Positions 4,101-26,690 of a stretch of 64,000 nt of DNA are shown here, in pieces. Below the pieces are notes generated by a model. It searched no databases. It saw only the letters and a program-made list of their open reading frames with translations, and was not told the DNA's origin. Made by a program: the position numbers and the translations under genes. The DNA lies in NCBI GenBank assembly GCA_964017155.1, contig OZ024861.1, forward strand, positions 21,507,213 through 21,571,212, read 5' to 3'. The DNA is from Oasisia sp. SBJ-2009 (taxonomy: Eukaryota > Annelida > Polychaeta > Sabellida > Siboglinidae). Each line of letters begins with the position of its first letter. Positions within the stretch are counted from its first letter, which is position 1.

Positions 4101-5730
4101 GGGTGGTTAGATGGATGCGTTAAGTAGGGTTGGTTGAATGGATGCTATAAGTAGGGGTGGTTGGATGGATGCGTTATGTAGAGGTGATTGGATGGATGCG
4201 TTAAGTATGGTTGTTTGAATGGATGCTTTATATACGGGTGGGTGAATGGATGCTCTAAGTAGGGGTGGTTGGTTGGATGCATTCAGCAAAGGTGAATGGA
4301 TGGATGCATTAAGTATAGGTGAATGGATGTATGCACTAAGTAGGGGTGGTTGAATGGGTGCGATAAGTAGGGGTGGTTGGATGGATGCGATAAGTAGGGG
4401 TAGTTGGATGAATATGTTAAATAGCGGTGGTTGGATGGATGCGTTAAGTAAGGGAGGTTGAATGGATGCGTTAATTAGGGGTGGTTGGATTGATGCGTTA
4501 AGTAGGGGTGGTTGGATGGAAGCGCAGAGTAGGGGTGTTTGGATGGATGCGTAATGTAGGAGAGGTTGGATGGATGCGTTAAGTAAGGGTGATTGGATTG
4601 ATACGTTAAGTAGTGGCGGTTGGATGGATGTGTTAAGTAGGGGTGGTTGGACGGATGCGATAAGTACGGGTGGTTGAATGGATGCGTTAAGTAGGGGTGG
4701 TTGGATGGATGCTTTATATACGGGTGGTTGAATGGATGCGTTAAGTAGGGGTTGTTAGATGGATGCGTTAAGTAGGGGTGGTTGGATGGATGCGTTAAGT
4801 AAACTAAGGGTGGTTGGACTGATGCATTAATTACGGGTGTTTGGATGGATGCGTTAAGTAGGGGTGGTTGGATGGATGCTATAAGTACGGGTTGTTGGAT
4901 GGATACGTTAAGTAGCGGTGTTTGAATGGATGCGTTAAGTAGTGGTGGTTGAATGGATGCGTTATGTAGGGGTGATTGGATGGATTCGTTTAGTATGGCT
5001 GGCTGAATGGATGCTTTATGTAGGGGTGGTTGGATGGATGCGTTAAGTAAGGGCGGTTGAATGGATGCGTTAATAAGGGGTGGTTGGATCGATGCGTTAA
5101 GTAGGGGTGGTTGGATGGATGCGTTAAGTAGGAGTGGTTGAATGGATGCGTTAAGTAGGGGTGGTTGGATGGATGCTTTATATACGGGTGGTGGAATGGA
5201 TGCGCTAAGTAGGGGTGGTTGGTTGGATGCATTCAGGAAAGGTGAATGGATGGATGCATTAAGTTTAGTTGAATGGATGTATGCACTAAGTACGGGTGGT
5301 TGGATGGTTGCGATAAGTAGGAGTGGTTGGATGGATGCGTTTAGTAGGGGTGGTTGGATGGATGCGTTAAGTAGGGGTAATTGGATGAATACGTTAAATA
5401 GCGGTTGTTGGATGGATGCGATAAGTAAGGATGGTTGTATGGATGCGTTAGTTAGGGGTGGTTGGATTGATGCTGTAAGTAGGGGTGGTTGGATGGAAGC
5501 GCTGAGTAGGGGTGTTTGGATGGATGCGTTAAGTAGGAGAGGTTGGATGGATGCGTTAAGTAGGGGTGGTTGGATGGATGCGTTAATTAGGGGTGGTTGC
5601 ATGGATACGTTAAACAGGGGTGGTTGAATGGATGCTTTACGTAGAGGTGGTTGAATTGATGCGTTATGTAGGGGTGGTTGGATGGATGCGTTAAATAGAG
5701 GTGAATGGTTGGATGCATTCAGTAAAAGGG
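4101..5730 (+). repeat. C-type HOR block, copy 1
   Basis: Landmarks in order are GCATTCAGCAAAGG (near 4,279), AATATGTTAAATAGCGG, GCGCAGAGTAGG (near 4,524), GGTTGTTAGATGG (near 4,750), GCATTCAGGAAAGG (near 5,229), GCTGTAAG (5,472), GCGCTGAGTAGG, AAACAGGGG (near 5,612) and finally AGTAAAAGGG at 5,721, a 7-bp-class contraction that ends the block. The same order recurs at 9,479-11,275, at about 16,490-17,468, and in the copy cut by the inversion at about 22,500-23,677. Confidence 0.82.
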
Positions 5731-16423: not shown

Positions 16424-17468
16424 GTAAACTAAGGGTGGTTGGACTTATGCATTAATTAGTGGTGGTTGGATGGATGCGCTAAGTAGGGGTGGTTGGATGG
16501 ATGCGTTAAGTAGGGGTGGTTGGATGGATGCGTTAAGTAAACTAAGGGTGGTTGGACTGATGCATTAATTACGGGTGGTTGGATGGATGCGTTAAGTAGG
16601 GGTGGTTGGATGGATGCTATAAGTACGGGTTGTTGGATGGATACGTTAAGTAGCGGTGTTTGAATGGATGCGTTAAGTAGTGGTGGTTGAATGGATGCGT
16701 TATGTAGGGGTGATTGGATGGATTCTTTTAGTATGGCTGGCTGAATGGATGCTTTAAGTAGGGGTGGTTGGATGGATGCGTTAAGTAAGGGCGGTTGAAT
16801 GGATGCGCTAATAAGGGGTGGTTGGATCGATGCGTTAAGTAGGGGTGGTTGGATGGATGCGTTAAGTAGGAGTGGTTGAATGAATGCGTTAAGTAGGGGT
16901 GGTTGGATGGATGCTTTATATACGGGTGGTGGAATGGATGCGCTAAGTAGGGGTGGTTGGTTGGATGCATTCAGGAAAGGTGAATGGATGGATGCATTAA
17001 GTATAGTTGAATGGATGTATGCACTAAGTACGGGTGGTTGGATGGTTGCGATAAGTAGGAGTGGTTGGATGGATGCGTTTAGTAGGGGTGGTTGGATGGA
17101 TGCGTTAAGTAGGGGTAATTGGATGAATACGTTAAATAGCGGTTGTTGGATGGATGCGATAAGTAAGGATGGTTGTATGGATGCGTTAGTTAGGGGTGGT
17201 TGGATTGATGCTGTAAGTAGGGGTGGTTGGATGGAAGCGCTGAGTAGGGGTGTTTGGATGGCTGCGTTAAGTAGGAGAGGTTGGATGGATGCGTTAAGTA
17301 GGGGTGGTTGGATGGATGCGTTAATTAGGGGTGGTTGCATGGATACGTTAAACAGGGGTGGTTGAATGGATGCTTTACGTAGAGGTGGTTGAATTGATGC
17401 GTTATGTAGGGGTGGTTGGATGGATGCGTTAAATAGAGGTGAATGGTTGGATGCATTCAGTAAAAGGG
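16424..17468 (+). repeat. C-type HOR block, copy 3
   Basis: It contains GTAAACTAAGG units (16,424 and 16,538), GGATTCTTTTAGTATGG, GCATTCAGGAAAGG (near 16,970), GCTGTAAG (17,210), GCGCTGAGTAGG, AAACAGGGG and terminal AGTAAAAGGG (17,459). Its second half lies 6,193 bp from C copy 2. The first half of the C order (GCGCAGAGTAGG and its neighbours) is missing here. Confidence 0.78.
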
Positions 17469-22107: not shown

Positions 22108-23677
22108 GTAAACTAAGGGTGGTTGGACTTATGCATTAATTAGTGGTGGTTGGATGGATGCGTTAAGTAGGGGTGGTTGGATGGATGCATTAAGTAGGGA
22201 TTGTTGGATGCGTGCGTTAAGTAGGGGTGGTTGGATGGATGCGTTATGTAAACTAAGGGTGGTTGGACTTATGCATTAATTAGTGGTTGTTGGATGGATG
22301 CGTTAAATAGGGTTGGTTGGATGGATGGTATAAGGAGGGGTGGTTGTATGGATACGTTAAGTAGGGGAGTTTGAATGAATGCGTTAAGTACGGGTGGTTG
22401 GATGGATGCGTTAAGTAGGGTTGGTTGAATGGATGCTTTAAGTAGGGGTGGTTGGATGGATGCGTTATGTAGAGGTGATTGGATGGATGCGTTAAGTATA
22501 GGTGAATGGATGTATGCACTAAGTAGGGGTGGTTGAATGGGTGCGATAAGTAGGGGTGGTTGGATGGATGCGATAAGTAGGGGTAGTTGGATGAATATGT
22601 TAAATAGCGGTGGTTGGATGGATGCGTTAAGTAAGGGAGGTTGAATGGATGCGTTAATTAGGGGTGGTTGGTTTGATGCGTTAAGTAGGGGTGGTTGGAT
22701 TGAAGCGCAGAGTAGGGGTGTTTGGATGGATGCGTAAAGTAGGAGAGGTTGGATGGATGCGTTAAGTAAGGGTGATTGGATTGATACGTTTAGTAGTGGT
22801 GGTTGGATGGATGTGTTAAGTAGGGGTGGTTGGACGGATGCGATAAGTAGGGGTGGTTGAATGGATGCGTTAAGTAGGGGTGGTTGGATGGATGTTTTAT
22901 ATACGGGTGGTTGAATGGATGCGTTAAGTAGGGGTTGTTAGATGGATGCGTTAAGTAGGGGTGGTTGGATGGATGCGCTAAGTAAACTAAGGGTGGTTGG
23001 ACTGATGCATTAATTACGGGTGGTTGGATGGATGCGTTAAGTAGGGGTGGTTGGATGGATGCTATAAGTAGGGGTTGTTGGATGGATACGTTAAGTAGCG
23101 GTGTTTGAATGGATGCGTTAAGTAGTGGTGGTTGAATGGATGCGTTATGTAGGGGTGATTGGATGGATTCGTTTAGTATGGCTGGCTGAATGGATGCTTT
23201 ATGTAGGGGTGGTTGGATGGATGCGTTAAGTAAGGGCGGTTGAATGGATGCGTTAATTAGGGGTGGTTGGATCGATGCGTTAAGTAGGGGTGGTTGGATG
23301 GATGCGTTAAGTAGGAGTGGTTGAATGGATGCGTTAAGTAGGGGTGGTTGGATGGATGCTTTATATACGGGTGGTGGAATGGATGCGCTAAGTAGGGGTG
23401 GTTGGTTGGATGCATTCAGGAAAGGTGAATGGATGGATGCATTAAATATAGTTGAATGGATGTATGCACTAAGTAGGGGTGGTTGGATGGTTGCGATAAG
23501 TAGGAGTGGTTGGATGGATGCGTTTAGTAGGGGTGGTTGGATGGATGCGTTAAGTAGCGGTAATTGGATGAATACGTTAAATAGCGGTTGTTGGATGGAT
23601 GCGTTAAGTAAGGGTGGTTGTATGGATTCGTTAATTAGGGGTGGTTGGATTGATGCTGTAAGTAGGGGTGGTTGGAT
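22108..23677 (+). repeat. C-type HOR block, copy 4, truncated by the inversion
   Basis: Transition monomers, then the C order: AATATGTTAAATAGCGG (near 22,594), GCGCAGAGTAGG, GGTTGTTAGATGG, GGATTCGTTTAGTATGG, GCATTCAGGAAAGG (near 23,412), AATACGTTAAATAGCGG and GCTGTAAG at 23,655. The block stops 23 bases later; in the intact copies it goes on for about 250 bp to AGTAAAAGGG. The spacing from C copy 3 at GCTGTAAG is 6,445 bp. Confidence 0.82.
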
Positions 23678-23730
23678 TCGAAACACTCCTACCGAACATG
23701 TCCATCCAACCTCCTCTACTTAACGCATCC
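23630..23730. other. Orientation-switch junction between the two arrays
   Basis: The + strand passes from G-rich to C-rich at 23,677/23,678 (GGTTGGAT then TCGAAACACTCC). The left flank has an uninterrupted counterpart at 5,461-5,500, where GGTTGGAT continues as GGAAGCGC; the same is seen near 11,020 and 17,220. The right flank has an uninterrupted counterpart at 25,891, where TCGAAACACTCC is preceded by GCATCCA. So each side was broken inside an ordinary monomer and joined directly, with no inserted bases and no clear microhomology. A palindrome, TTCGAA (23,677-23,682), sits on the join. The two flanking monomers are in register and pair as an imperfect inverted repeat with about 12 of 15 bases matching around a 1-base centre. 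An assembly misjoin cannot be excluded from sequence alone. Confidence 0.9.
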
Positions 23731-24950
23731 ATCCAACCACCCCTACTTAACGCATCCATCCAACCACCCGTAATTAACGCATCCATCCAACTACCCCTAT
23801 ATATCGCATCCATCCCACCACTCCTACTTAACGCATCTATTCAACCACCCCTAATTAACACATCAATACAACGCCATACTTAATGCATCCATCCAACCTC
23901 CCCTCCTTAACGCATCCATCCCACCACCCCTACCTAACGCATCCATTCAACCACCCCTTCTTAACGCATCCATTCAACCACCCCTGCTTATCCCATCCAT
24001 TTATCCACCCGTACTTAGCGCATCCATCCAATAACCCCTACTTATCGTATCCATCCAACCACTCCTACTTAACGTATCCATCCAACCACCCCTACTTAAC
24101 GCATCCATTCAACCACCCCCATTTAACTTATCCATCCAATCTCCCCTACTTAATGCATCCATCCAATCCCCCCTACTTATCACATCCATTCACCAACCAC
24201 CCCTGCTTTACGCATCCATTCAACCACCCCTACTTAACGCATCCATCCAACCACCCCTACTTAACGCATCCATCCAACCACCCGTAATTAATGCATCCAT
24301 CCAACTACCCCTATATATCGCATCCATCCCACCACTCCTACTTAACGTATCCATCCAACCACCCCTACTTAACGCATCCATTCAACCACCCCCATTTAAC
24401 TTATCCATCCAATCTCCCCTACTTAATGCATCCATCCAATCCCCCCTACTTATCACATCCATTCACCAACCACCCCTGCTTTACGCTTCCATTCAACCAA
24501 CCCTAATTAACGCATCCATACAACCACCTACTTAATGCATCCATCCAACCACCACTCCTTAGCGCATCAATACTACCACCCCTACCTAACGCATCCATTC
24601 AACCACCCCTTCTAATCGCATCCATTCAACCACCCGTACTTATCCCATCCATTCAACCACCCGTACTTAACGCTTCCATCCAATAACCCCTACTTATCGT
24701 ATCCATCCAACCACTCCTACTTAACGTATCCATCCAAACACCCCTACTTAACGCATCCATCCAACCACCCCTATTTAACGTATCCATCCAATCTTCCCTA
24801 CTTAATGCATCCATCCAATCCCCCCTACTTATCACATCCATTCACCAACCACTCCTACTTAAAGCATCCATCCAACTACCCCTACATAACGCATACATTC
24901 GACAATCCCTAATTAACGCATTAATCCAACCAGCCCCACGTATCGCATCC
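23678..24950 (-). repeat. P-type HOR block, copy 1, at the junction
   Basis: It begins CGAAACACTCCTACCGAAC. Landmarks are CTATATATCGC (23,797), ACACATCAATACAACGCC, CTTATCCCATCC, CCCCCATTTAACTTATCC (near 24,117), CTTATCACATCC and a 30-bp monomer with CATTCACCAACCACC. The segment starting at 24,121 repeats at 24,394 (273 bp: nine 27-bp units plus the 30-bp one). The opening part of the block recurs at 25,891 (offset 2,213). Confidence 0.8.
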
Positions 24951-25400
24951 ATTCAACAACCCGTACTTAACGCATCCATCCAACCACCCCTACTTAAAGC
25001 ATCCATCCAATCACCCCTAGTTAATGCATCCGTCCAACCACTCCTACTTATCGAATCCGTCCAACCTCTCCTACTTAGCGCATCCATCCAACCGCTCCTA
25101 CTTAGTGCATCCTTCCATTCACCACTGCTTAATGCATCCACCCGACCACCCCTACTTAACGCATCCATTCAACTACCCCTATAGAACGCATCCATCCAAC
25201 CACCCCTACTTAATGCTTCCATCCATTCAACTCAACTTAGTGCATCCATCCAACTACCCCTATATAACGCATCCATCCAACCACCCCTACATAATTCTTC
25301 CATCCATTCACCTCAACTTTATACATCCATCCAAGCACCCCTGCATAACGCATCCATCCATTCACCTCTACTTAATGCATTCAACCACCCATACTTAGCG
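24951..25400 (-). repeat. R-type HOR block, copy 1
   Basis: Landmarks are GTTAATGCATCCGTCC, CGAATCCGTCCAACC, GCATCCTTCCATTCACC, CACCCGACC, CTATAGAACGC (near 25,190), CTATATAACGC (25,260) and CTACATAATTCTTCC. The same order follows P blocks at 30.0, 32.4, 38.9 and 49.0 kb. Confidence 0.75.
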
Positions 25401-25540
25401 CATCCATCCAACCATCCCTACTTAACGCATCCATCCAACTACACCTACTTATCGCATCCATCCAACCACCCCTACTTAACGCATCCATCCAACCACTCAT
25501 AGTTAACGCTCCTATTCAACCACCGCTAATTAACGCATCC
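25401..25540 (-). repeat. Near-consensus monomers between R and P
   Basis: About five monomers close to consensus (CTACACCTACTTATCGC, ACTCATAGTTAACGC). Nothing else is seen. Confidence 0.55.
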
Positions 25541-26690
25541 ATACAACTCCCTACTTAATGCATCCATCCAACCACCCCTCCTTAGCGCATCTTTCCTACC
25601 ACCCCTACCTAACGCATCCATTCAACCACCCCTATTTAACGTATCCATCCAATCTCCCCTACTTAATGCGTCCATCCAACCACCCCTCCTTAGCGCTTCC
25701 ATCCTACCACCGCTACCTAATGCATCCATTCAACCACCCCTCCTTAACGCATCCATCCAATCACCCCTACTTCACGCATCCATCCAACCACTCCTACGTA
25801 ATGCATCCGTCCAACCACCTCTACTAAACGCATCCATCCAACCACCCATACTTAACGCATCCATTCAACCACCGGTACTTAACGCATCCATCGAAACACT
25901 CCTACCGAACATATCCATCCAACCTCCTCTACTTAACGCATCCATCCAACCACCCCTACTTAACGCATCCATCCAACCACCCTTAATTAAGGCATCCATC
26001 CAACTACCCCTATATATCGCATCCATCCCACCATTCCTACTTAACGCATCCATTCAACCACCCCTAATTAACACATCAATACAATGCCATACTTAATGCA
26101 TCAATCCAACCTCCCCTCCTTAGCGCATCCATCCTACCACCCCTACCTAACGCATCCATTCAACCACCCCTTCTTAACGCATCCATTCAACCACCCCTAC
26201 TTATCCCATCCATTCAACCACCCGTACTTAACGCATCCATCCAATAACCCCTACTTATCGTATTCATCCAACCACTCCTACCGAACATATCCATCCAACC
26301 TCCTCTACTTAACGCATCCATCCATTCACCACTACTTAACGCATCCATCCAACCACCCGTAATTAACGCATCCATCCAACTACCCCTATATATCGCATCC
26401 ATCCCACCACTCCTACTTAACGCATCCATTCAACCACCCCTAATTAACACATCAATACAACGCCATACTTAATGCATCCATCCAACCTCCCCTCCTTAGC
26501 GCATCCATCCTACCACCCCTACCTAACGCATCCATTCAACCACCCCTTCTTAACGCATCCATTCAACCACCCCTACTTATCCCATCCATTCAACCACCCG
26601 TACTTAAGGCACCCATCCATAACCCCTACTTATCGTATCCATCCAACCACTCCTACTTAACGTATCCATCCAACAGCTCCTACTTAACGC
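25541..26690 (-). repeat. P-type HOR blocks, copies 2 and 3
   Basis: A short P copy (25,541-25,890) is followed by one starting GCATCCATCGAAACACTCCT at 25,884, the intact counterpart of the junction flank. A further partial copy has CTCCTACCGAACATATCC at 26,275. CTATATATCGC recurs near 26,010 and 26,390. Near 26,610 one monomer is shortened (CACCCATCCATAACCCC). Confidence 0.75.

Follow-up and report, generated by a model that had tools for sequence, protein, structure and literature searches.

The orientation switch at 23,677/23,678 is probably a breakpoint junction between two separately amplified, opposed domains of one satellite family that were united by end-joining. The whole stretch of DNA that was analysed (the window, 64 kb) consists from end to end of one 27-bp satellite, which changes orientation only there. 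The left array (1-23,677, + strand, approximately 872 monomers with a mean monomer-consensus identity of 89.4%) carries the G-rich strand on +, and the right array (23,678-64,000, - strand, approximately 1,502 monomers with a mean identity of 88.0%) runs in the opposite orientation, C-rich on +; terminal partial monomers were left out of both counts. The consensus, GGATGGATGCGTTAAGTAGGGGTGGTT, is letter-identical for the left array and, on the - strand, for the right array, so the same satellite family lies in opposite orientation on the two sides of a single switch. Orientation switches in satellites are already known, and this one is a cleanly resolved, ordinary example.

A single orientation switch

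The flip from G-rich to C-rich on the + strand, as the original prediction had placed it, is confirmed. Per kb, GC skew lies between +0.74 and +0.80 up to 23,000 and between -0.75 and -0.82 from 24,001. Tandem Repeats Finder reports a 27-bp array at 1-23,677 and the reverse complement of the same array at 23,701-63,998; the intervening bases (23,678-23,700) are a diverged monomer of the right array, placed gap-free by wrap-around alignment. When every 27-base stretch was scored against the consensus on both strands, no other orientation switch was found in the window (0 exceptions on the left, 0 on the right). The arrays measure 23.7 kb and 40.3 kb, and both are cut by the window ends. Wrap-around alignment was also used to cut the monomers, approximately 10% of which have a gap or an insertion, and the mean and median figures given here rest on it.

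The join at base level

Inside satellites, the sequences flanking a breakpoint are as a rule so similar that it can seldom be read at base level; in this case, variant monomers allow such a reading on both sides. The last 30 bases of the left array recur exactly at 5,465, 11,010 and 17,203, and the last 60 match 58 of 60 bases in the copies at 5,435, 10,980 and 17,173, which then read GGAAGCG where the junction reads TCGAAAC. On the other side, the first 60 bases of the right flank match the copy at 25,891 at 59 of 60 positions, and the sequence ahead of that copy is CGCATCCA, as against TTGGAT at the junction. Of the truncated last left monomer (23,674-23,677, + strand) 4 bases remain, the break lying after monomer position 4, and of the truncated first right monomer (23,678-23,680, - strand) 3 bases, the break lying after position 3 of the - strand. 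The larger samples agree: among 262 places in the left array that resemble the left flank, the 12 commonest continuations (250 of the 262) are never that of the junction, and in the right array ...CA stands ahead of all 27 places that resemble the right flank, in 23 cases as GCATCCA. Each flank therefore exists uninterrupted in other copies, and the join is the derived state.

The join is blunt, the left flank matching left copies to its last base and the right flank matching right copies from its first base. Alignment of the flanks to their copies within each array revealed no inserted bases, no shared bases and no unrelated spacer at 23,677/23,678, and there is no N at the join. Microhomology was considered and rejected: the right copy at 25,891 has A as its preceding base and the left copies continue with G, whereas the junction has T in both places. 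The intact counterparts at 5,461-5,500 and 25,884-25,910 on which the original prediction relied are real, and its reading of a break within one monomer on each side, with nothing inserted, stands.

These details bear on the possibility that a misassembly or a chimaeric read united two separate satellite places. Assembly gaps are known to arise in long satellite arrays, and some stretches of long-read assemblies are misoriented; in the human assemblies described in PMC10234299, satellite DNA accounts for 22.3% of the contig breaks, and true inversions overlap 31 of the 38 misoriented regions. An overlap-based assembler, however, needs common sequence, and the two flanks share no base at the join; a fold-back read with a missed adapter would yield mirror-image flanks, which are absent here; and neither an N nor an odd spacer marks the join. 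An artefact of this kind is accordingly quite unlikely. Non-homologous end-joining can leave a blunt join of truncated monomers without a shared base.

The symmetry axis of the two arms is base 23,677, and the arms are within one base of perfect mirror register (position 4 on the left, position 3 on the right). This leans weakly towards a hairpin or strand-switch origin, and is weighed as a slight hint only, because with random phases a register this close is expected by chance in 3 of 27 cases. As single-stranded DNA, 23,570-23,785 is predicted to form a hairpin of -72.5 kcal/mol (z -14.7, with 0 of 200 shuffles as good); no function is read into it, because any two opposed arrays of one satellite would fold in this way.

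Monomers and block order on the two sides

The monomers of the left and right arrays belong to one cloud: the mean pairwise difference, out of 27 positions, is 5.02 within the left array, 5.66 within the right array and 5.40 between them. There are 239 monomer types on the left and 434 on the right, 15 of them common to both, and the common types account for 155 left and 153 right monomers. Certain variants are almost confined to one side: T at position 5 is present in 11.1% of left versus 1.3% of right monomers, A at position 10 in 0.1% versus 7.5%, and A at position 17 in 0.9% versus 8.0%.

At the level of monomer order, the left and right arrays have nothing in common. No 8-monomer block has a copy of less than 3% divergence on the opposite side (0 of 865 from left to right; 0 of 1,495 from right to left), and the count is still 0 at 8%; at a looser cut-off of 10%, 12 of the 865 left blocks and 4 of the 1,495 right blocks match across the switch. 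In 14 artificial splits analysed as a control at the cut-off of less than 3%, 61 to 91% of blocks found such a copy across the six splits inside the left array and 17 to 73% across the eight inside the right array. Compared within their own array, 8-monomer blocks have a median best divergence of 0.5% (left) and 0.9% (right), versus 13.4% from left to right and 14.8% from right to left; the value of 13.4% is no better than that obtained against the right array in shuffled monomer order (13.2%, from every tenth left block and 20 shuffles). A comparison of monomer order detected 40 diagonal runs of at least 20 monomers within the left array and 42 within the right array, and none of even 6 monomers between the two. 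The original prediction had assigned the two sides to different families of higher-order repeats (HORs); the absence of common higher-order blocks agrees with this, but at monomer level it overstates the difference, as the consensus is the same and only the frequencies of variants differ. The term HOR is itself loose here, as no regular higher-order period is seen on either side, where the structure is instead pieced together from internal duplications, each tens of monomers long, at many lags (for example 52, 60, 198, 204 and 432 monomers on the left; 60, 68, 77, 331, 359 and 470 on the right).

A recent fold-back (palindromic) duplication of one array would account for the near mirror register about the axis at 23,677, but it should also have left the variant monomers in mirrored order around that axis, and they are not. 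Over 8 to 64 monomers, the mirror divergence at the junction (0.19 to 0.21) does not improve on the values at 399 other offsets, and no block is common to the two sides under 3% (0 of 865 and 0 of 1,495). Such an event is extremely improbable and was rejected, in line with the original prediction, which had argued against a fresh fold-back copy.

An older event is harder to dismiss. An inversion or fold-back inside a single array might have been followed by homogenisation of the arms apart from each other until no block remained in common; opposed arrays could not undergo in-register unequal crossing-over, and gene conversion would keep the flanks young-looking. The identical consensus on both sides, the left-right difference (5.40) that falls between the two within-array values, and the near mirror register at the join all suit such a history, and gene conversion would need no further cause to end at the break. 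Against it, the junction lacks mirror order, as noted above for the recent fold-back, and the truncated blocks described below resemble members of within-array duplications, which a later join fits more simply. An old inversion or fold-back within one array is thus unlikely.

The join between two separately amplified domains would require that each domain was amplified and homogenised on its own through internal duplications, and that a double-strand break in each was followed by blunt end-joining in opposed orientation. The junction may, for example, mark an end of an inversion, or the edge of a satellite block that was transposed or translocated; it would suffice for an inversion to have its two ends in different satellite domains, or for a satellite block to be transposed. 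It is observed directly that the join is blunt, that a block is truncated on each side, and that the two sides have the same monomer consensus but no higher-order block in common; from these, end-joining would be the mechanism, an inversion may have been involved, and the order of events may be reconstructed as set out in the next section. The original prediction called for a reciprocal join of GCATCCA to GGAAGCGC, a form that follows correctly from the flanks; within the window, the search for it gave only one hit, with 3 mismatches, a number reached by 42 of 100 shuffles. The lack of this reciprocal breakpoint in the window speaks against the two-domain reading, as do the near mirror register and the few cross-side block matches at 10%.

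It is also conceivable, although doubtful, that the orientation switch itself is a barrier to homogenisation, such that neighbouring arrays with the same consensus exchange no block across 23,678 and do so freely within each side. If this is true and the arrays have long been neighbours, the junction would show directly that the repeats of a satellite must lie in the same orientation to evolve in concert.

Truncated duplications and the age of the join

The junction truncates a block of internally duplicated monomers on each side. On the left, the 44 monomers at 22,481-23,677 (+ strand) have a copy at 4,298-5,490 with 1.7% divergence, and a 27-monomer part of the block is 2.1% diverged from a copy at 16,495-17,202 (plus its last monomer). 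Left copies at 5,494 and 17,232 continue beyond the position of the break, and over the next 810 bases each 54-base step remains 98 to 100% alike. On the right, the block at 23,678-24,056 (- strand) has a copy that starts at 25,891, with 14 monomers at 3.7% divergence and identities of 0.98 to 0.93 in 54-base steps across its first 378 bases; the right-side runs that reach the junction are this one and another of 10 monomers at 2.2%.

The join looks younger than the duplications because copies with a divergence of approximately 2% on the left and 2 to 4% on the right extend past the break, and the simplest order would be duplication within each array first and the join later. The last 189 bases of the left array contain 5 sites that set the junction copy apart from all three of its relatives, and comparison with five more distant copies suggests 2 changes in the junction copy itself and 3 in the relatives. 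An older join could be made to look young by gene conversion with interior copies as donors, which would halt at the break because homology ends there; the order of events is read from one haplotype, in which duplication followed by a join and gene conversion give the same picture.

The original prediction offered either an old or complex inversion or a join of two separately amplified arrays. The latter fits best, and "old" is unsupported for the join, because the copies of the truncated blocks past the break are so little diverged; the great age belongs to the separation between the arrays, not to the join itself.

Degeneration of the array edges at the junction was also considered and is unsupported: the terminal 16-monomer block is 2.1% (left) and 4.6% (right) diverged from its best copy, and 276 of 857 left blocks and 463 of 1,487 right blocks are at least as diverged as the terminal one. 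The first 2.7 kb of the right array (23,678-26,400), with a mean best-copy divergence of 8 to 11% in 50-block bins, is among its least homogenised parts; similar patches lie deeper in the right array, where other bins have 7 to 10%.

Comparison with other satellites

On its own, the junction is an ordinary rearrangement. Inversions of primate alpha satellite include one of 3.2 Mb in one orangutan chromosome 20 centromere and others in macaque chromosomes 5 and 10 (PMC11062924); as in those arrays, a tandem array changes strand at a point, but the monomer here is of 27 bp, unrelated to alpha satellite by anything tested, and one breakpoint is visible. Changes of direction are likewise described in mouse satellites, where directional switches in 1.7% of minor and 1.9% of major satellites are read as inversion events (PMC10880262); here a single switch is seen in a single window.

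The macro-dyad symmetries of Tribolium satellites, called by their authors documented only in that genus, are similar in having opposed subarrays of one satellite over tens of kilobases and a predicted large hairpin at the inversion site (PMC13081366), and the 23.7-kb and 40.3-kb arrays are within the corresponding range of kilobases to tens of kilobases. The Tribolium inversion sites, however, as that report presents them, exist in thousands of near-identical copies with specific diverged subunits, whereas there is one site in 64 kb here, and recurrent conserved inversion sites with site-specific diverged subunits were not found within the window. Unlike its Tribolium counterparts, the first right monomer is nothing exceptional, since it recurs in near-identical form inside the right array at 25,891. 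The PpCR-1 repeat of Poa pratensis is a 27-bp pericentromeric monomer (PMC5345224); kinship with the present satellite is not claimed.

The region 23,400-24,000 had no match among plasmids, and Rfam gave no match; a 28-base piece in viral contigs and a 23-base piece in prokaryote genome contigs had no exact match, and a literature text search found none of six consensus pieces of 14 to 16 bases. The window contains no open reading frame of at least 500 amino acids; the 27-bp monomer is a multiple of three, and its consensus, read by eye, is stop-free in some frames. Some of the internal duplications are nearly identical, for example 58,674-56,769 versus 56,607-54,702, which differ by 0.1%. The junction can be used as a marker for long-read validation and for a test of whether opposed orientation stops satellite homogenisation.
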